The notes beneath the pieces are model-generated. The model saw nothing but the letters and a program-made list of their open reading frames with translations. It was not told where the DNA came from and did not search any database. Of a stretch of DNA of 64,000 nucleotides, positions 10,604-20,746 are shown piece after piece. Both the position numbers and the translations under genes were made by a program. The stretch comes from Leucothrix pacifica (GTDB lineage: Bacteria > Pseudomonadota > Gammaproteobacteria > Thiotrichales > Thiotrichaceae), in contig NZ_QGKM01000003.1 of NCBI RefSeq assembly GCF_003172875.1, positions 1 through 64,000 of the forward strand, written 5' to 3'. Positions within the stretch are counted from its first letter, which is position 1; each line of letters begins with the position of its first letter.

Positions 10604-11044
10604 ATGCAATACCTTCACACAATGATTCGGATTAGTAACGTTGAAGAGTCCCTCGACTTTTTCTGCAATAAACTCGGCATGGTATTACTCAGACGTAACG
10701 ACTACGAGGAAGGCCGCTTCTCGTTGATTTTTCTATGTGCACCGGGTGATGAGGAGCGCGTGAGAGAAACACGTCAAGGAGAATTGGAACTCACCTATAA
10801 CTGGGACCCGGAAGAATATACCGGTGGCCGCAACTTTGGGCATCTGGCTTATCGGGTCGACAATATTTATGAAACTTGTCAAAAGCTGATGGACGCAGGC
10901 GTTACCATCAACGTCCCTCCCCGCGATGGTCACATGGCCTTCGTCAGATCACCGGACAATATTTCTATCGAGCTACTACAAGCGGGTGACTCATTAGCGC
11001 CGGCTGAGCCTTGGGTCTCTATGGAAAACAGTGGAACCTGGTAA
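10604..11044 (+). CDS. gloA: lactoylglutathione lyase (glyoxalase I)
   Basis: A 146-residue glyoxalase I, which turns the methylglyoxal-glutathione hemithioacetal into S-lactoylglutathione. The four metal ligands of the family align: H5, E62 in ELELTYNW, H80 in NFGHLAY and E123 in ISIELLQ. Length is a little over the usual 130-135 because of a C-terminal tail (SLAPAEPWVSMENSGTW). A CAGGAGC ribosome binding site precedes the ATG. The gloB gene starts 10 bases after the stop, so the two glyoxalase steps form one transcription unit. Methylglyoxal forms when triose phosphates build up, which fits the sugar-acid genes around it. The inverted repeat upstream suggests specific regulation. Confidence 0.95.
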   Translation: MQYLHTMIRISNVEESLDFFCNKLGMVLLRRNDYEEGRFSLIFLCAPGDEERVRETRQGELELTYNWDPEEYTGGRNFGHLAYRVDNIYETCQKLMDAGVTINVPPRDGHMAFVRSPDNISIELLQAGDSLAPAEPWVSMENSGTW

Positions 11045-11054
11045 GGACGAACAG

Positions 11055-11825
11055 ATGAGTAAGTTAGAATTTTTCCAATTCCCCTATAACTGGGATGATA
11101 ACTACGGTGTATTGATTCACTCTCCCGACACAGGTGAAACGGCTTGTATTGATGGTGGAATCGCTGAGACGTACCAGCAAGCACTGGATGAAAAAGACTG
11201 GAAGCTGACCCACATTTTTGTCACACATCACCATGCGGATCACACCACTGGTGTTGTCGAACTCAAAGAAACCAATAATGCCAAGGTCATCGGCCCTAGC
11301 TATGTTGGTGCTCGCCCAATTAAGGGGATTGATGAGTCGGTAAGTGACGGAGACCGCTTTGAATTTGCGGGCGTTGAAGTTCAGGTTATACACACACCGG
11401 GACATACGATGGATTTGATTTGTTATTACATTCCATCCGAGGGCGTCATTTTTGTGGGTGATACGTTGTTTGCCTTAGGTTGTGGTAAAGCTTTTGAAGG
11501 CACGCCGGAGATGATCTGGGAAAGCCTGAAGAAATTACACGCGCTGCCACCGGAAACACTGATTTACTGCTCCCATGAATACACGCAGGAAAATGCAGGT
11601 TTTGCGATTCAGATTGACCCAAACAATGAAGCACTAAAAGCACGTATCGAAGAGATTAACCGTTTACGTGCGGATGATATTCCAACAGTGCCGTTTACAT
11701 TAGCAACCGAGCTTGCAACAAATCCGTTCTTGCGTGCGGATGATGCGGGGATTCGTGAGCAACTGGGAATGAAAAACGCGCCTGAGGTGGAAGTCTTTAC
11801 AGAAATCCGCCGGAGGCGCGGCTAA
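11055..11825 (+). CDS. gloB: hydroxyacylglutathione hydrolase (glyoxalase II)
   Basis: A 256-residue metallo-beta-lactamase-fold hydrolase that releases D-lactate and glutathione from S-lactoylglutathione. The binuclear metal motif THHHADH is at residues 57-63, followed by the later ligands in HTPGHTMD and FVGDTLF and by YCSHEYT. The C-terminal HAGH substrate-binding part ends with NPFLRAD. The start at 11055 has AGGACG upstream; an ATG eight codons earlier overlaps gloA and is less likely. It is the second gene of gloAB. Its 3' end overlaps the stop codon of a truncated permease reading the other way, so a deletion end point probably lies right at the end of gloB. Confidence 0.94.
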   Translation: MSKLEFFQFPYNWDDNYGVLIHSPDTGETACIDGGIAETYQQALDEKDWKLTHIFVTHHHADHTTGVVELKETNNAKVIGPSYVGARPIKGIDESVSDGDRFEFAGVEVQVIHTPGHTMDLICYYIPSEGVIFVGDTLFALGCGKAFEGTPEMIWESLKKLHALPPETLIYCSHEYTQENAGFAIQIDPNNEALKARIEEINRLRADDIPTVPFTLATELATNPFLRADDAGIREQLGMKNAPEVEVFTEIRRRRG

Positions 11826-12064
11826 ATTGCCCGGATAAAGTCATCATTTTCAAACAACGTCTGAAAGTGTTCAAAACCAATCCATGGACTTCCGTCGATA
11901 CCTTTAAAGATACTGTAGTCTTTAAAAGCAATTTGTAATCCGTACATCGGTTTATACAAAAAGACGATAAACCAGATAATCGTCGGGGCCAGCATTAAAT
12001 ATAATTGCCATTCCCGCTTAAGGTGCTGAACTAACCATTGGGACTTGCTCAGTGAGTTAGACAT
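11822..12064 (-). pseudogene. truncated LplB-type ABC transporter permease, N-terminal fragment
   Basis: Eighty residues that match the beginning of an LplB/UgpA-type sugar ABC permease: a first membrane segment (YLMLAPTIIWFIVFLY), then KPMYGLQIAFKDYSIF and WIGFEHFQTLF, which is the conserved periplasmic part before the second membrane segment. Intact permeases of this group have about 300 residues; this one stops after FIRAI, just where NTL and the second helix would follow. A strong AGGAGGATAT ribosome binding site precedes the ATG, 11 bases after the chimeric gene upstream. The stop codon overlaps the 3' end of the convergent gloB. The fragment has no transmembrane domain for transport and cannot work. 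It is the remains of a deleted transporter operon. Confidence 0.82.
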
Positions 12065-12075
12065 ATATCCTCCTA

Positions 12076-12597
12076 CTAGAGTCCTTCGGGATGGTCAAAG
12101 ACGTTACCGGTGTCACCGTCAAATACTTTGATCATTTCAGGCTTGAAGTGAAATGCGTTGACCTCTTCGAGATGCTTGATATCACCACGGGTCTCTGCTT
12201 TCACAACAAAAGGCTTGTCCATTTGCAAACCAATATTCCAGTTACCCCGTTGCTGAGCTGCTCGTCTTACAGCGCCAAATTCCAGCTGCAAACGGATAAA
12301 GCAAGCTTCGACATAACGGTCGATTTGTATAGGGGTTACAAAAGTTCCTCGCTTAGGAACAATCGATACCAGCCCAACGCTTTGCAAACGAATCATGGCT
12401 TCACGAACAGGTGTCTTACTAGCCATCAATGCTTCTGCAACTTCCTTTTCAGAAAGCCTTTGTCCCGGATAGAGCTGAATGGTGATGATCAGCTCTTTGA
12501 GTATGGAAAATACCTGCGAGGTCAGCGACTTTTCCGGATCTAATATCTTACCTTCCAGCAAGTCAGAAATCGGCAATATGTGGCCTATAGACTTCAC
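12076..12597 (-). pseudogene. fusion of a GntR regulator N-terminus with the C-terminal tail of an ABC ATPase
   Basis: An open frame of 173 residues made of two unrelated parts. Residues 1 to about 115 are a GntR winged helix and the start of the FCD domain (KTPVREAMIRLQ, YVEACFIRLQLEFGAVRRAA), closely similar to the intact regulator at 13003-13767. From about residue 120 the sequence changes to the C-terminal TOBE-like end of a MalK/UgpC-type ABC ATPase, recognisable by KPEMIKVFDGDTGNVFD. The FCD domain and the whole nucleotide-binding domain are missing, which points to one in-frame deletion. Start is a GTG behind GAGGAGAG. The DNA-binding half may still fold, so it could act as a ligand-blind repressor. 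A truncated permease follows 11 bases downstream. Confidence 0.75.
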
Positions 12598-13002
12598 AAA
12601 CGTTTTCTCTCCTCAATGATGAGCCGTGAAATATCTCATAGCCCTATCTAATATCTCAGATGATGAGATTTTCAAAAAAGATAATTTACAAGTTATTTTA
12701 AAAATAAATATTTATTAACACAGACTGAAGAAGTTAAACAATCACAGACGACACTCAAATAAATTTTTTAAATTATTGTTTTTATTAAATAAATTTCAAT
12801 TTATATACTTTTCAACAGAACACTGGTTTATTTCGAAAATAGCCAGTCTTAAGATCGAAAAGAGCTCTTTACAAATCAGTAAAATTTGTAAAAAAATAGA
12901 TATCATGACTAGATTTAACTAAGATATTAGTTATTAAATGAAGTGAAATTTGAGAGTCGGACGAATGTCTGACTCAGCATAATGCCTTAAAAATAGGCAC
13001 GA
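12598..13002. other. AT-rich intergenic region upstream of the fusion gene
   Basis: About 405 bases with no open frame of interest. The middle (12680-12950) is extremely AT-rich. Close to the fusion gene there is an inverted repeat built from ATCTCA/TGAGAT (listed separately), with further ATCTCA and CTCAATGATGAG elements at 12611-12640. No terminator with a T-run was recognised for the regulator ending at 13003. Confidence 0.5.
12653..12669. promoter_or_regulatory. ATCTCA-n5-TGAGAT inverted repeat, candidate GntR operator
   Basis: Perfect 6-base arms at 12653-12658 and 12664-12669 around GATGA, about 56 bases upstream of the GTG start of the GntR fusion gene. A related arrangement (ATCT, GATG, ATGAGAT) lies ahead of the intact paralogue at 13866-13887, so both paralogues may recognise the same motif. 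Confidence 0.4.
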
Positions 13003-13767
13003 TCAACGGCTATTACGTGGCCGTTTTCCTGTCGCGTTTAGCGTCTCAATGAAATCGAGCAGCTCTGGATTTGCTGACAATGTATCAATCTCAGTTTCCA
13101 GTGAACCGATATGATTAATGATGGCCGCCTCAGCAGCATCCGGAGAGCCGGCACGAATTGCGGCAACAATCGCCTGATGCTCTTCGATGACCTGAGCACC
13201 ACGACGGATCTTATAAATTCGTTTGAGATGTCTGATGCGGTACACATCAGATTGAGACTTCTTCACAAGCTTCCAAACACCGGGGACACCTGCCATTTCG
13301 TAGAACGCTTTATGCAAGGCTTCATCATACTTAAAGAATAGTTCGTGCTCTTCGTTTTCAAGCGCCTTAATCTGCCGACTGACCATCGACTCCAGATTGA
13401 GCACGCCTTTTAAGTCGTTACTTCGTTCTGCGGCACGTCGTACTGCCCCTACTTCAAGCTGAAGACGCGTGAAACAAGCTTCAATATAGCGCTCCAGACT
13501 GATGGGAGAGACATATGAACCACTCTTGGGGACAACTTTGACAAGTCCGGTGTCTTCAAGCTTAATCAACGCCTCACGGACGGGTGTCTTACTGGCTTTT
13601 AAGGCTTCGGATATCTCTTTTTCAGACATGATCTGTCCGGGCTTGAGTTGGATGGTAACTATTAACTCCATCAAAATACTGTATATCTGTTGCACCAGAC
13701 TCTCTGAGGAGTCAAGTACGACACCCTCTAATAACTCTGAAACAGTATTGTCTTTCAACTTGGCCAT
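13003..13767 (-). CDS. GntR-family transcriptional regulator (FCD group)
   Basis: A 254-residue regulator with an N-terminal winged helix at about residues 20-95 (LVQQIYSILMELIVTIQLKPG, ALKASKTPVREALIKLE) and an FCD domain from about 105 to 235 (CFTRLQLEVGAVRRAAE, LHKAFYEMAG, EEHQAIVAAI). It is intact and a close paralogue of the GntR half of the fusion gene at 12076-12597; both carry LLEG near the N-terminus and the same helix-turn-helix core, so they probably arose by duplication. AGGATAATAAA before the ATG supports the start. It reads away from the MATE gene across 204 bases. The ABC transporter remnant downstream may have been its former target. Confidence 0.9.
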   Translation of the reverse strand: MAKLKDNTVSELLEGVVLDSSESLVQQIYSILMELIVTIQLKPGQIMSEKEISEALKASKTPVREALIKLEDTGLVKVVPKSGSYVSPISLERYIEACFTRLQLEVGAVRRAAERSNDLKGVLNLESMVSRQIKALENEEHELFFKYDEALHKAFYEMAGVPGVWKLVKKSQSDVYRIRHLKRIYKIRRGAQVIEEHQAIVAAIRAGSPDAAEAAIINHIGSLETEIDTLSANPELLDFIETLNATGKRPRNSR

Positions 13768-13865
13768 TTTATTATCCTACTAACTATTCTTACAATTCTA
13801 ACATACTAATTGGCAAATCTGACATATTAGATGTTATTATGAACCACTAACGTATTCGTTCACAG

Positions 13866-13887
13866 TATATCTGATGCATGAGATATA
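13866..13887. promoter_or_regulatory. TATATCT-n8-AGATATA inverted repeat, candidate operator
   Basis: Seven-base arms at 13866-13872 and 13881-13887, located between the divergent GntR and MATE genes. The inner bases GATGCATG give the same ATCT/GATG/ATGAGAT words as the site at 12653, which supports a shared GntR operator. The evidence is two sites only. Confidence 0.4.
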
Positions 13888-13971
13888 TCAGACTATATCA
13901 TTAAATACTTTAATAACTTAACTTCATTGCGATCATTACTAAACAAAGCTCCTCAAACCTGAGACAACTGA

Positions 13972-15159
13972 ATGACCCAGGACGTACCCGGCAGACAACA
14001 AGTATTCACTTTGGCATGGCCCATTGCGATGAATGCAGTTCTGTTACAGTTAATTTTGGTGATCGATACTGTGCTGGTAACACCGCTTGGTGAAGAGTCA
14101 CTAGCAGCCATGGGGCTTGCAGCGGGCTTGGGCATTGTGTTTATTTTGACTTATGCTGAGCCACTAATTTATTCAATCGCCGAAACAGAGCCAATGGCTG
14201 CCAAATCCTTCGGCTACCTGAAAGTATTTTCTGTGGTGTTGATTGGTGTCGCTCTGAGCCAAAACATCACCGTCTATTTCAATGCAACCGGCAATAGCAA
14301 ACTCCCGTTCTACGCGAATCTTTTTGAGCTGCCCGTTAATGTCGTTGTCAGCTACATTTTAATCCATGGCTTGCTTGGGCTACCGGCCCTGGGATTGATT
14401 GGTGCAGCACTCGGCTCTGCCGTGGCAGTCTTGTGCCGCACCCTATTTCTGCTAGCGTTTTACGCCAAACAATATATGCAGCCGAATGAAGCGATTCAAA
14501 GACTGACAGGGCATGACGTCAAGTACCACCTGAAATATGCGACTCCGATTGCCGGTACATTTGTCAGTGCCGTACTGGCTTCCAGCGTGTGTATGCTGAT
14601 CTATGCCAGGCTCGGTATCAATCAGTTTGCTGCACTCACCTTGATTACGCCGTGGATTAAAGTTGCCGGACACCTTTCTACTGCCTGGGCACAAGCCACC
14701 AGCATCATCGTTGGTCAACTACTGGGGAATAAACGTTGGGAGCTACTGGATAGTTTCATCAGTAAGGCCTGGCGAGCCTCATTCATCATTAGCATTGTCA
14801 TTTCGCTGGCTTATCTGAGTATGTTTTTCTTATTTGAATGGATATACCCGGAACTGCAACCCGAAACCCTCAGTACACTCTGGCAATTTATGCCGATTTT
14901 GGTATTGGTTCCCTTTATAAGAACGTCCAACACGATTTGTGGCAACGTAATGCGAGCTGGTGGTGATGCGAATCATATTTTCTGGATTCATGCGCTAACG
15001 CAATGGCTAATCATTGTGCCACTCTCCGCGCTACTGGTTTTGTATCAGGAAATGAGTGCAGTCTGGGTGTTCGCGCTCATCTTATTGGAAGAACTGATTA
15101 AGGGCGTCCCATTTCATGTACGGATGCATGGAGGGCAATGGAAGAAAAGTCTGGCCTGA
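13972..15159 (+). CDS. MATE-family efflux protein with an internal in-frame loss
   Basis: A 395-residue membrane protein of the MATE (DinF/NorM) group, which expels organic cations using sodium or proton gradients. Recognisable segments are FTLAWPIAMNAVLLQ (helix 1), FNATGNSKLPFYANLFELP and AALGSAVAVLCR in the middle and AGGDANHIFWIHA near the end. Family members normally have about 440-460 residues and 12 helices. Around residues 52-58 (about 14125-14150) AAGLG runs directly into IVFILTYAEPLI, where relatives have the second helix and part of the third; about 45 residues seem to be missing. The frame stays open. With one or two helices lost, transport is doubtful. No strong ribosome binding site is visible. 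Confidence 0.82.
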   Translation: MTQDVPGRQQVFTLAWPIAMNAVLLQLILVIDTVLVTPLGEESLAAMGLAAGLGIVFILTYAEPLIYSIAETEPMAAKSFGYLKVFSVVLIGVALSQNITVYFNATGNSKLPFYANLFELPVNVVVSYILIHGLLGLPALGLIGAALGSAVAVLCRTLFLLAFYAKQYMQPNEAIQRLTGHDVKYHLKYATPIAGTFVSAVLASSVCMLIYARLGINQFAALTLITPWIKVAGHLSTAWAQATSIIVGQLLGNKRWELLDSFISKAWRASFIISIVISLAYLSMFFLFEWIYPELQPETLSTLWQFMPILVLVPFIRTSNTICGNVMRAGGDANHIFWIHALTQWLIIVPLSALLVLYQEMSAVWVFALILLEELIKGVPFHVRMHGGQWKKSLA

Positions 15160-16957: not shown

Positions 16958-17731
16958 ATGAGCCAAATAGCCATCGACTGCGTGTTGGATATCAAAGCTG
17001 ACATTGGGGAGAGTGCCGTTTGGTGCACCGAAACACATTCACTTTTTTGGGTAGATATTCCGAAAGGAACTCTGAACAGCTTTGACCCGACAACCGGACA
17101 CAACCAAAGCTGGTCAATGGGTGAAAGCTTAGGCTGCTTTGCACTGACCAATCGCGCGACAATTGTGCTGGCGCTTGCTTCTGGTTCAGTGTATTGCTTG
17201 GATGTCATCACAGATCAGGATGAGCCTGAAGACAAGGAAGCAGCCGTAAACGTACGAAAGATCATGAGTGGATTTCATATTCCGAATGGCATGGCATTCT
17301 CTCCGGATGGAAAGACTGCCTATATTTCGGACTCCTTTCCTGAGATCCGTACGATATGGGCTTATGACTATGATCTGACGGATGGCGTTTGGTCAAATCA
17401 GCGAGTCTTTTTCGATACCAAAGGACGTCCGGGGCGACCTGACGGTGGCACTATTGATGCTGATGGTTGTTACTGGATGGCGGGCGTCAGTGGCTGGGAG
17501 CTAGTGCGTATCACACCAGCAGGAAAAGTTGATATGGTGATTGAGTTTCCGGTTGAAAAGCCAACCAAAATCGCATTTGGTGGTGACAACCTAGACACCC
17601 TATTTGTGACGTCTTTGGGTTGTGACATCACTGAAGGCACTCACCAACCTCATGCGGGCGGCTTGTTTGCTCTAACCGTACCAGGCGTAACCGGTTTGGC
17701 AACACCACGCTTGCCGCTTGGTCGTACATAG
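16958..17731 (+). CDS. SMP-30/gluconolactonase-family protein with an internal in-frame loss
   Basis: A 257-residue six-bladed propeller lactonase of the SMP-30/LRE group, which opens sugar lactones to aldonates. Three of the metal ligands of the family can be placed: the glutamate of GESAVW near residue 18, the asparagine of IPNG near 110 and the aspartate of GRPDGG near 163. The conserved NDG-x-D and GRFWxGTM segment that should follow residue 85, and that contributes the substrate-binding asparagine, is absent: VYCLDVITDQDEPED runs directly to the segment before IPNG. Relatives have about 290 residues, so 30-40 seem lost. The start at 16958 has AAGGAAT before it. It lies next to uxuA-kdgK (convergent). 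Activity is doubtful. Confidence 0.85.
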   Translation: MSQIAIDCVLDIKADIGESAVWCTETHSLFWVDIPKGTLNSFDPTTGHNQSWSMGESLGCFALTNRATIVLALASGSVYCLDVITDQDEPEDKEAAVNVRKIMSGFHIPNGMAFSPDGKTAYISDSFPEIRTIWAYDYDLTDGVWSNQRVFFDTKGRPGRPDGGTIDADGCYWMAGVSGWELVRITPAGKVDMVIEFPVEKPTKIAFGGDNLDTLFVTSLGCDITEGTHQPHAGGLFALTVPGVTGLATPRLPLGRT

Positions 17732-17829: not shown

Positions 17830-19011
17830 CTAAGCGGCCGTCAATCGCTCCACCGCCTGCACCACGCCTCTGAGCTCAGCCATCCCTTTTAAGCGCCCCA
17901 GATACGAATATCCCGGATTCACTTGTGACCCTTCCTCAAATACCAGCAAATGCCCATGATCCGGTCTCAGGAAAATGTCATTGCTACGACGCTCATTTGC
18001 TTTAGCGTCTTTCTCAGCGGCTAATAAGGCCTGAATAATCGCAATCATGTCCAGATCACCATTCAGGTGCTCCGCTTCATAGAATGAGCCATCACTATCA
18101 CGACGAACATTTCTGAGATGAGTAAAGTGAATACGGTCAGCATACTTGCCCGCCATTTTCACAAGATCATTATCTGCACGCGCGCCAAAAGACCCCACAC
18201 AGAAGGTCAGGCCATTGGCCGGACTTTCAACCGCACTAAACAAGAAATCTAAATCCGACTCTGTTGATACAATTCGGGGTAATCCAAACAATGGGAACGG
18301 AGGATCATCCGGGTGAATCGCCAGACTGATTCCCTGAGCCTCGGCTGTCGGTGTAACAGCCTCAAGGAATGAAACCAGATTATTTCGCATGTCGTCATCA
18401 CTAACGTCATCAAAACGAGCGATACGCTTAGCAAACTCACCAGCGCCATGACTTTCTGCGCCACCGGGTAAACCAGCAACGATATTTTTTTCCAATAAGG
18501 CGATAGCTTCATCAGACTTTGACTTCAAGCGTTCCTCTGCCAGTGCTAATGTCTCAGCACTATAGTCCTGAGCAGCCGACTCGCGTTTAAGCACGAATAC
18601 ATCATAAGCAACAAAGTCGATCATATCGAAACGTAAAGCAATGCCCTGTCCTTCCAATCGATGATTCAGGTCTGTGCGCGTCCAATCCACCACCGGCATG
18701 AAGTTATAGCAGACCGTCTTTACACCAGCCGCACCCAGATTTTCCAGCGTCTGTTTCCATGCCGCGACTTCTTCAGTCGCTCCGGCACCTTTGAGCTTAA
18801 TCTCATCTGACATCCAGATCGATTCACACACATCCCACGTCAGCCCCGCTGCCTCGATGCATTTTTTGTGCTCGAGAATATCTTCCATCGGCCAAACTTG
18901 TCCCGGTGAATAGCCATGCAGTGCCGATACAATCCCTTCACTACCAGCCTGCCGGATATTTTCCAGAGAGATCGGATCGTTCTTACCAAACCAACGCCAT
19001 GTCTGTCTCAT
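17830..19011 (-). CDS. uxuA: mannonate dehydratase
   Basis: A 393-residue enzyme that dehydrates D-mannonate to 2-keto-3-deoxygluconate in glucuronate breakdown. The length is the family norm. Typical stretches are MRQTWRWFGKNDPISL, the long TIM-barrel core, LAIHPDDPPFPLFGLPRI with the metal-binding histidine and aspartate, CVGSFGARADND, HFTHLRNVRR and FLRPDHGH near the end. It follows kdgK after 18 bases, with an AGGTAAACAGT ribosome binding site in the gap. Order on the minus strand is gntR, kdgK, uxuA. No uxaC or uxuB is nearby, so mannonate must be supplied by enzymes encoded elsewhere. Confidence 0.95.
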   Translation of the reverse strand: MRQTWRWFGKNDPISLENIRQAGSEGIVSALHGYSPGQVWPMEDILEHKKCIEAAGLTWDVCESIWMSDEIKLKGAGATEEVAAWKQTLENLGAAGVKTVCYNFMPVVDWTRTDLNHRLEGQGIALRFDMIDFVAYDVFVLKRESAAQDYSAETLALAEERLKSKSDEAIALLEKNIVAGLPGGAESHGAGEFAKRIARFDDVSDDDMRNNLVSFLEAVTPTAEAQGISLAIHPDDPPFPLFGLPRIVSTESDLDFLFSAVESPANGLTFCVGSFGARADNDLVKMAGKYADRIHFTHLRNVRRDSDGSFYEAEHLNGDLDMIAIIQALLAAEKDAKANERRSNDIFLRPDHGHLLVFEEGSQVNPGYSYLGRLKGMAELRGVVQAVERLTAA

Positions 19012-19030
19012 ACTGTTTACCTAAAACTGT

Positions 19031-19942
19031 TTATCCTGCCTGAACCAGCTCGAAGGCGACCAATGCGCCTTTGTTACATACCACGGCTGCCGCACAGCGC
19101 TGTGCTACTGCGATGGATTTATCGATATCGCCGGAAGCCATATACTCAGCCAAATAAGCACCGTTAAAAGAATCACCCGCTGCGGTGGTATCAACGACAC
19201 CCGTGGTTGCTGCAACTGGGTAATAACGATAGCTGTCACCCTCGGCAAATAGCGTATCCTCTTCACCATTCTTAACCACCACCTGACTAACGCCTAACGC
19301 TTGATAGCGCTGCGCGGTTGCCATCGGCGTTTCATCACCAAACGTAATTTGCTCATCTTCAAAGCTTGGCATTACCACATCAGAAATTGCCGCAGTGCGC
19401 GTGATGACGTCTTTCATTCTTTCTTCGGATATCCACAAACGTGGCCGGATATTAGGGTCAAACACTACGATAGCGTCTTTTTTCAGTGCACCACGCAAGC
19501 CCTTTATCAAAGTTTCAGCGGCATCATCCGGTAAAATAGCCATAGTGATACCAGACAAATAGACAACATCAGCTAAGGCAACAGCATCCCACAGTTTACT
19601 TGGGTCTTGCATCATCTGTCGTGCGGCAGACGAGTCACGCCAGTAACTAAAAGAACGCTCTGCACCATTAAGGTGTATCTTATACAGTCCGGGCACGCCT
19701 CCTTTAATGTGAGGCACATGTGTGGTGGCAATACCTGCACTCTCGACAAATGACAGCAACTCTTTTGAGTTTTCATCATCACCGACTGCCGTGAAAAAAG
19801 CAGCTCTTGAATCATTGTTCATTAAGGCACGGGCGTACCATAAGGTATTAAATACATCGCCTGCAAAGCCTTGCTTCCAAAGCTGGTCTCCCATTGATGA
19901 AAGTTCCATCATGCATTCGCCAATACCAAGTAATGACTTCAT
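19031..19942 (-). CDS. kdgK: 2-keto-3-deoxygluconate kinase (PfkB family)
   Basis: A 303-residue PfkB/ribokinase-type sugar kinase that phosphorylates KDG to KDG-6-phosphate. The start GIGECMMELS, the substrate-binding FAGDVFNTLWYARAL, FDPNIRPRLW and the catalytic DTTAAGDSFNGAYLAEYM signature near residue 250 are all in place, with the aspartate of AAGDSF as the base. It is full length. A GAGGACGT ribosome binding site supports the start. It is followed by uxuA, so the two steps mannonate to KDG to KDG-6-P are encoded together. The product is the effector of HexR, whose likely operator lies ahead of pyk in this window. An aldolase (eda) is not in the window. Confidence 0.93.
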   Translation of the reverse strand: MKSLLGIGECMMELSSMGDQLWKQGFAGDVFNTLWYARALMNNDSRAAFFTAVGDDENSKELLSFVESAGIATTHVPHIKGGVPGLYKIHLNGAERSFSYWRDSSAARQMMQDPSKLWDAVALADVVYLSGITMAILPDDAAETLIKGLRGALKKDAIVVFDPNIRPRLWISEERMKDVITRTAAISDVVMPSFEDEQITFGDETPMATAQRYQALGVSQVVVKNGEEDTLFAEGDSYRYYPVAATTGVVDTTAAGDSFNGAYLAEYMASGDIDKSIAVAQRCAAAVVCNKGALVAFELVQAG

Positions 19943-19996
19943 TTATACGTCCTCAGACTATCTTGAATAAGTTGTTAGGAATTATGCTGTGCTCGT

Positions 19997-20746
19997 TTAC
20001 GAGCTTGACACTTCACCATCAAACACGCGCTGTCTTGCATTATCAATATGGCGACGCATGGCATCACGCGCAGCAGGTGCATCACCTTCAATGATTGCCT
20101 CGATGATCTCACGATGCTCTTGCTGCACCAGCTCCAAACGTGTCTTCGGTTTCATCAGTGATAAGTTTCGCGTCAAGTTCATTCCCGTCAGAATGTTCGC
20201 ATTCATCGAGGTTCTGGCTGATGCAAAATACTGGTTATCTGAAGCCCGACAGATTGCAAAATGGAACGCTTCATCAGCATCCACACCCAGCTCATTATTT
20301 TCAACACAACGGTCCAGCTCTTTAAGCGCCGCTGTCATCAAATCAATATCAGCCTGTGAACGTCGCTTTGCTGCCAAATAGGCCGCCTCGCCTTCAACCG
20401 CTGCACGAAACTCAAAGGTTCTCTGAATGTCAGCGATAGACCCCACCGGAGCAAAATCGAGTATTGCCTCATCAGGCCTGCGCTTTACAAAGGAGCCGGA
20501 ACCTTGGCGTGATACAATCACATCATCTTCACGCAATTGCTTGAGTGCCTGACGCAAAATTGGTCGCGATACTTGCATTTGTTCACTCAGTACGTGCTCG
20601 GTGGGAAGCTTATCTCCGACAGCTATTTCCCCCTGAACAATCATAGAAAGCAATCGTTCATAGACACGATCCGACAGGCTACTATCCTTAAATGCCTGCT
20701 TCTCTGAGCGATGTGATTTTTCTTGTGATGATTTCATTGGCTCCAT
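19997..20746 (-). CDS. GntR-family regulator of the uronate genes (FCD group, UxuR-like)
   Basis: A 249-residue regulator with a winged helix at about residues 22-90 (LSDRVYERLLSMIVQGEIAVG, EQMQVSRPILRQALKQL) and an FCD domain (FEFRAAVEGEAAYLAA, DADEAFHFAICRAS, EHREIIEAIIEGDAPAARDAM). FadR-type regulators of this sort (UxuR, ExuR, KdgR-like) normally sense a uronate or KDG and repress the pathway. It lies directly upstream of kdgK-uxuA on the same strand, 54 bases away, so it is probably part of the same unit. AGAGGAAA lies 7-8 bases before the ATG. An AT-rich inverted repeat upstream may be its own operator. Confidence 0.88.
   Translation of the reverse strand: MEPMKSSQEKSHRSEKQAFKDSSLSDRVYERLLSMIVQGEIAVGDKLPTEHVLSEQMQVSRPILRQALKQLREDDVIVSRQGSGSFVKRRPDEAILDFAPVGSIADIQRTFEFRAAVEGEAAYLAAKRRSQADIDLMTAALKELDRCVENNELGVDADEAFHFAICRASDNQYFASARTSMNANILTGMNLTRNLSLMKPKTRLELVQQEHREIIEAIIEGDAPAARDAMRRHIDNARQRVFDGEVSSS

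Follow-up and report, generated by a model that had tools for sequence, protein, structure and literature searches.

The open reading frame on the minus strand at positions 12597 to 12076 of the 64-kb window (the whole stretch of DNA analyzed here) is very probably a scar left in this marine bacterium by a recent deletion within an operon for an ABC importer of seaweed alginate. The frame encodes 173 amino acids and joins the winged helix and linker of a GntR regulator to the last residues of an ABC ATPase. The original prediction, which named no strand, had described this fusion, attributed it to a single deletion, and proposed that the product may be a ligand-blind repressor. The deletion is an ordinary and well-resolved one in a lost operon, and a new repressor is possible but unlikely. 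The features of the locus are collected in Table 1.

Table 1. Features of the hybrid reading frame and its surroundings in the window
Feature	Positions	Strand	Evidence
Second break; algM1 homology ends where gloB ends	11820..11828		gloA-gloB located elsewhere in G003 and G006
algM1 stub with initial 80 codons of permease; stop overlaps gloB stop codon	11822..12064	-	Intact relatives; L048 gene matches PDB AlgM1
ATPase tail; C-terminal 48 residues of AlgS-type ABC ATPase, in-frame fusion	12079..12222	-	Homology to intact ATPases
Junction ATGGAC (Met-Asp); short homology common to gntR2 and algS of relatives	12217..12222	-	Nucleotide comparison
GntR half of hybrid; winged helix and linker helix, residues 1-127, from alginate-operon regulator gntR2	12217..12597	-	Pfam, homology, AF2
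Ribosome-binding site of hybrid, GAGGAGAG	12607..12614	-	Sequence; 9 nt upstream of GTG
Operator-like palindrome TCTAATATCTCAGA upstream of hybrid	12647..12660		One of two pattern matches in 5.02-Mb genome
Weaker distal operator-like site, 11/14	12918..12931		Consensus scan
gntR1, intact paralogous GntR/FCD regulator	13003..13767	-	Pfam GntR and FCD; orthologues 75-77% identical in L027, L029, L046, L049
Operator-like palindrome between gntR1 and MATE gene	13818..13831		Consensus scan, pattern match
MATE transporter gene; in-frame 48-codon internal loss after about residue 53	13972..15159	+	Alignment with five relatives

The reading frame is open across the join, as had been reported, from a GTG codon at 12597 to a TAG codon at 12078-12076, and it is preceded by a good ribosome-binding site. 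A match to the Pfam GntR domain (PF00392) covers residues 26-87 of the hybrid with an E value of 1.1e-16 and a score of 60.7 bits against a cut-off of 27. No Pfam match to the FCD domain is obtained in the hybrid; the paralogue at 13003-13767 contains both GntR and FCD, and the FCD domain is detected in the intact gntR2 orthologue of metagenome-assembled genome (MAG) locus L048 with an E value of 2.3e-20. Relative to the GntR/FCD (FadR) subfamily, the hybrid possesses the N-terminal winged helix and lacks the C-terminal FCD domain. The match to the paralogue, previously given as residues 1-115, is real, with 62% identity over residues 10-121, and the homology to regulators reaches further, to residue 127. 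The GntR half is 82% identical to intact gntR2 of L048 (residues 28-127) and 75% identical to the gntR2 of L046 (residues 4-127), the contig of which ends at gntR2.

Residues 126-173 of the hybrid are 81% identical to residues 320-367 of the 368-residue ATPase from L048. Identities of 77% (residues 127-170, E value of 2.2e-17) and 65% (residues 124-171, E value of 2.4e-16) are found with the intact ATPases from G003 and G006, two genomes of the same genus. By these alignments the ATPase match stands well above chance, and the concern that the C-terminal 55 residues might lack an ATPase counterpart is removed. The 50-residue tail alone gives no match in Pfam or NCBIfam. The two halves meet at Met126-Asp127, where the regulator homology ends at residue 127 and the ATPase homology begins at residue 126. 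The C-terminal end of an ATPase had therefore been recognized correctly, and the join, placed near residue 120, was set about 10 residues early. The nucleotide-binding domain of MalK/UgpC/AlgS-type ABC ATPases, which carries the Walker and signature motifs, is missing in the hybrid; the ABC_tran domain occupies residues 20-161 of the intact L048 protein. A plus-strand open frame of 150 amino acids at 12091-12543 lies antisense to the hybrid and is taken as a by-product of the coding strand.

Both halves were aligned with intact homologues, and the relatives show gntR followed by ATPase and permease genes. The genes gntR2-algS-algM1-algM2-algQ-oligoalginate lyase lie in this order on one strand in G003 (locus L027), in G006 (locus L028), and in locus L047 of a Thiotrichaceae MAG. 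In these three rows gntR2 is full length, the ATPase is of the MalK type, genes for two permeases and for one solute-binding protein follow, and the lyase comprises 777-782 residues. The contig of locus L048 lacks the start of gntR2, covers the genes for the ATPase and for the first permease, and breaks off early in the second permease gene. The same row appears in the isolate loci L050 (Tropicimonas) and L053 (Yoonia), and gntR2 adjoins the ATPase gene in the class-genome locus L147. The row is not universal among relatives of the regulator; a gntR2-like gene with only an AlgQ-like gene nearby is found in L051 and L052. The closest named relatives are MAGs designated 'uncultured Thiotrichaceae'.

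The best PDB matches for the L048 queries are AlgS and AlgM1, with scores of 428 and 425.5 bits, respectively. For the L028 queries the best matches are AlgQ2 and the oligo alginate lyase 3a0o, with scores of 619.1 and 1074.4 bits, respectively. Because of these four matches, the intact operon appears to encode an importer of alginate together with an oligo-alginate lyase; 3a0o belongs to family PL15. For the SDR encoded downstream in G006, the PDB gave general SDR matches only. The relatives resemble the AlgM1M2SS-AlgQ1/Q2 importer of Sphingomonas sp. A1 in that their genes match AlgS, AlgM1, AlgQ2, and 3a0o in one row, whereas in the window only the AlgS tail and the AlgM1 stub remain and the local regulator is a GntR/FCD protein. 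Import of alginate by AlgQ and AlgM1M2SS is described in PMC8286568.

The sequence of the hybrid at the joint is ATGGACAAGCCTTTT. Both genes of L028, gntR2 and algS, carry ATGGACAG at the equivalent point, and the two genes of L048 have ATGGA in common. The repeat common to both ends in the relatives is 5-8 nt in length. The distances from the Met codon of gntR2 to the Met codon of algS are 1386, 1404, and 1389 bases in L048, L028, and L047, respectively, and all are multiples of three. Since ATGGA(C) stands at both ends in the relatives, the joint fits a deletion between short direct repeats. The single in-frame deletion that had been proposed to join the regulator to the transporter gene is strongly supported by the intact order in the relatives together with the short homology at the junction.

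We infer the following course for the deletion, with alginate as the lost substrate and without a function for the hybrid. The ancestor would have carried gntR2-algS-algM1-algM2-algQ-oligoalginate lyase. About 1.4 kb would then have been lost between short identical stretches, ATGGA(C), that encode Met-Asp in both genes. From gntR2 this loss would have taken the FCD domain and from algS the first ~319 codons, with the remainder joined in frame. A separate break would have taken all of the operon after codon 80 of algM1 and placed a pair of glyoxalase genes next to the stub. If it is made at all, the product would consist of a winged helix, a linker helix, and a probably unfolded tail of 48 residues; it most likely does nothing important and is heading for decay, and at most it would occupy half-sites weakly. 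Deletion-fusion remnants at short direct repeats are a known kind of event, and the likeness here lies in two neighboring genes joined at a few common bases with their partner genes lost. The parent genes are intact and adjacent in the relatives, and the missing segments were not found elsewhere in the genome. The difference in the present case is that the frame happens to be open and that the event appears recent.

The permease gene downstream of the hybrid, which the original prediction had not mentioned, is a stub of 80 codons only. The gloB gene is convergent with this stub, and algM1 is cut after codon 80 at the gloB end. The gloA-like and gloB-like genes at 10604-11825 adjoin the stub. 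This pair sits elsewhere in G003 and G006, so the break at about 11825 is read as a rearrangement. In the genome that contains the window, no match was found for AlgQ or for the oligoalginate lyase. Lyases with the Hepar_II_III_C domain number zero in this genome versus three in G003 and four in G006. An algS orthologue was not found in the genome either; its best ATPase is 51% identical to that of G006, versus 80% for the ATPase of G003. One PL7 lyase is kept. The deletion belongs to a wider loss in which an alginate operon was dismantled and only its remnants stayed at the locus; the join is most likely the trace of a vanished pathway and not a new functional protein.

The age of the event was gauged with the algM1 stub and the ATPase tail (130 codons), as neither can serve its old function and both can thus measure the time since the event. 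Excess nonsynonymous change was determined relative to the intact L048 lineage using three outgroups. The synonymous distances between species are mostly saturated, and the comparison was accordingly confined to nonsynonymous distances and to unique changes of amino acids, with no dN/dS. The dN excess is -0.006 (bootstrap 95% interval of -0.044 to 0.033) for the tail and stub together, -0.029 (-0.077 to 0.014) for the stub alone, and 0.033 for the ATPase tail alone, with a wide interval of -0.033 to 0.111. For the GntR half (96 codons) the value is 0.014 (-0.016 to 0.048). Because there is no nonsynonymous excess and the synonymous sites are mostly saturated, the time since the event would amount to no more than the final short portion of the branch. 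The deletion thus looks recent by substitution counts in 130 codons of one strain.

Selection on the hybrid leaves no distinct mark in these data. At those of the 96 columns of the GntR half where four relatives agree, the hybrid has no changes of its own versus one to four in the relatives, a result that purifying selection would also give. The parts without an old role show no decay either, so the open frame is no argument for selection; about one deletion in three is expected by chance to leave an open frame, so that its presence is weak evidence of selection in this case. Too little time has passed since the event for either decay or constraint to show, and the undecayed stub could also mean that the stub has a function.

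The suggestion of operators common to the hybrid and its paralogue is supported at the level of candidate sites. Two 16-nt stretches at 12646-12661 and 13817-13832 are 94% alike and form a candidate operator pair. The better partner is thus the site at 13818 and not the 13866 repeat named previously, which has only a 13-nt arm in common (12627-12639 with 13878-13890). A palindrome near TCTAATATATTAGA, with 11 to 13 of 14 positions matched, is present in all nine of the regions before gntR1 or gntR2 in the relatives and in both regions of the window, a count that is partly circular since the consensus was taken by eye from the same regions, the window included. Single-base shuffling gives as high a number in 0 to 10.7% of trials, with values above 5% in three regions, including the gntR1 region of the window. 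Five sites of at least 11/14 are found in the window: three in the two promoter regions, one in the coding region of the hybrid, and one at 1238. Only the sites at 12647 and 13818 reach at least 12/14.

Stronger evidence comes from the whole genome of 5.02 Mb, where the pattern TCTARKATNTYAGA has exactly two matches, one at 12647 upstream of the hybrid and one at 13818 upstream of gntR1/MATE, and the backwards control appears once. In G003 there are four matches at three places and in G006 there are seven, with one match for the control in each genome. Among the matches inspected in these two genomes (the site before gntR2, the PL7 site, L163, and L164), one in G006 precedes gntR2 and a second is located 54 nt upstream of a PL7 alginate lyase gene. 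The two further G006 matches, L163 and L164, have no recognized alginate gene beside them. Weaker sites (11/14) are located 45 and 65 nt upstream of the PL7 gene retained in the genome under study (G000). A weaker site is also located 33 nt before the first possible start of the PL7 gene in G003, the start of which is uncertain. A site is therefore present upstream in three of the five PL7 loci examined (G000, G003, and one of G006), and the PL7 loci L161 and L162 of G006 have no site upstream. The operator-like palindromes before the PL7 genes of the three species are found at 3312-3345 of L158, 2906-2919 of L159, and 3133-3146 of L160. These sites suggest a GntR/FCD alginate regulon, and the intact gntR1 could serve the candidate operator sites. 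As a by-product, the analysis yields a candidate for the operator that GntR/FCD regulators would use at alginate genes of this genus.

The structure of the hybrid was predicted in one AlphaFold model, for which the input alignment also held intact GntR proteins and ATPase tails. The mean pLDDT is 64.6 and the pTM is 0.42. Helices appear at residues 25-39, 50-57, 61-73, and 92-116. The pLDDT values are 74-87 for residues 11-80, 44 for the wing (residues 81-90), 55-65 for the helix at 92-116, and 43-53 for residues 121-173. A single low-confidence helix appears in the tail at residues 137-145; the tail is not predicted to fold and is probably unfolded. In the FCD-type regulator NanR, the linker is formed by helix 4, and effector binding and dimerization are functions of helices 5-10 (PMC8012715). 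By our reading the hybrid would keep the equivalent of helix 4 of NanR and lose the rest.

The hybrid could alternatively be a working ligand-blind regulator that binds an alginate-type operator, competes with gntR1, and represses the remaining regulon (the hybrid gene, MATE, and perhaps the PL7 lyase gene) without release by sugar. The unchanged DNA-binding half at the columns where the relatives agree is in line with such a protein, as are the restriction of the operator pattern in this genome to the positions before the hybrid and before gntR1/MATE and the two weaker sites before the retained PL7 lyase gene. A short regulator is also not impossible, because in the YtrA subfamily of GntR proteins the C-terminal part is about 50 residues long and the genes are mostly located together with ABC transporter genes (PMC4494728). 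The likeness to YtrA proteins extends to the short C-terminal part and the ABC genes. The YtrA tail is formed by two helices of its own, whereas the tail of the hybrid is a piece of an ATPase, homologous to AlgS, with one low-confidence helix and no predicted fold. The event, moreover, is too recent for visible selection. The FCD part after the linker is missing, and a ligand-blind repressor is unlikely because this is the part that binds the effector and dimerizes in NanR. The proposal of a ligand-blind repressor is accordingly not supported, and a working regulator of this kind is judged quite improbable. The same evidence bears on a bolder version, in which one deletion has just made a constitutive ligand-blind competitor of gntR1 that silences the leftover PL7 lyase, MATE, and gntR1 genes, as a regulator born from operon decay; we regard this as very improbable. 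If the hybrid does work, a ligand-blind repressor would have been made in one step. A comparable regulator is AusR, the GntR-family repressor of alginate genes in Zobellia galactanivorans (PMC8286568), which is likewise tied to alginate use. AusR is from a different phylum, the likeness is at the level of the GntR family, and the hybrid has lost its sensor part.

An established family of GntR-ATPase fusion regulators would be expected to recur in other species, and no further genome or locus in the searches contained the fusion. Full-length matches to the hybrid (residues 1-173) are restricted to its own genome among 39 genomes of relatives, among 369 genomes of the class (E values up to 1e-15), and among seven genomes of the genus, with the genome itself included in each set. 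No segment joins both halves in the 21 named loci or in L147-L153, using the best two segments per locus. The longest match to the hybrid in those loci ends at residue 162 and follows the FCD part. Within the samples searched an established family is rejected, and this reading is almost certainly wrong.

An assembly error or amplification chimera, with an intact operon in the real genome, would also produce such a join. The assembly is a draft of 146 contigs with 2.28% contamination, and three in-frame internal losses within ~5.6 kb are odd. The joint is nevertheless 12 kb inside a contig of 131,863 bases, and the repeat of 5-8 nt in the relatives is shorter than the usual words of assemblers. 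As searches throughout the genome, which has a completeness rating of 100%, found neither algQ nor the lyase gene, this explanation is given low weight and is highly unlikely. The probability that three losses of three are in frame is 1 in 27, or 1 in 9 without the first, which was picked for its open frame; this is a mild oddity for which no explanation is offered.

The deletion scar is a clean example of the loss of a polysaccharide-uptake operon through a short-homology deletion that happens to leave an open frame, and automatic annotation may report a 'GntR regulator' for this probable remnant. Decay of the genome in general was assessed using 93 reciprocal-best pairs of at least 50% identity, from 464 kb of the genome (the window and 20 further stretches) and ~1.22 Mb of G003; the pairs listed for the window include neither the hybrid nor the SMP-30 gene. 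An internal gap of at least 20 amino acids is detected in the protein of the genome under study in one of 93 pairs (the MATE gene) and in the G003 protein in two of 93. Among shorter gaps, from 15 amino acids, there is one of 18 amino acids in a protein of this genome. General genome decay is thus rejected for this sample, and because such losses are rare elsewhere in the sample the locus looks dismantled as a whole. The 48-codon loss in the MATE gene, which was absent from the original prediction, probably leaves that gene inactive.

Compared with its G006 orthologue, the SMP-30/gluconolactonase-like gene at 16958-17731 encodes a net 40 residues fewer, again in frame, and the loss lies inside the SGL domain. 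The genes for a UxuA-type dehydratase, a PfkB kinase, and a GntR protein at 17830-20746, in the same uronate locus, look full length relative to G003, with the PfkB kinase compared over two stretches only. Uronate use may have been kept while alginate import was lost.
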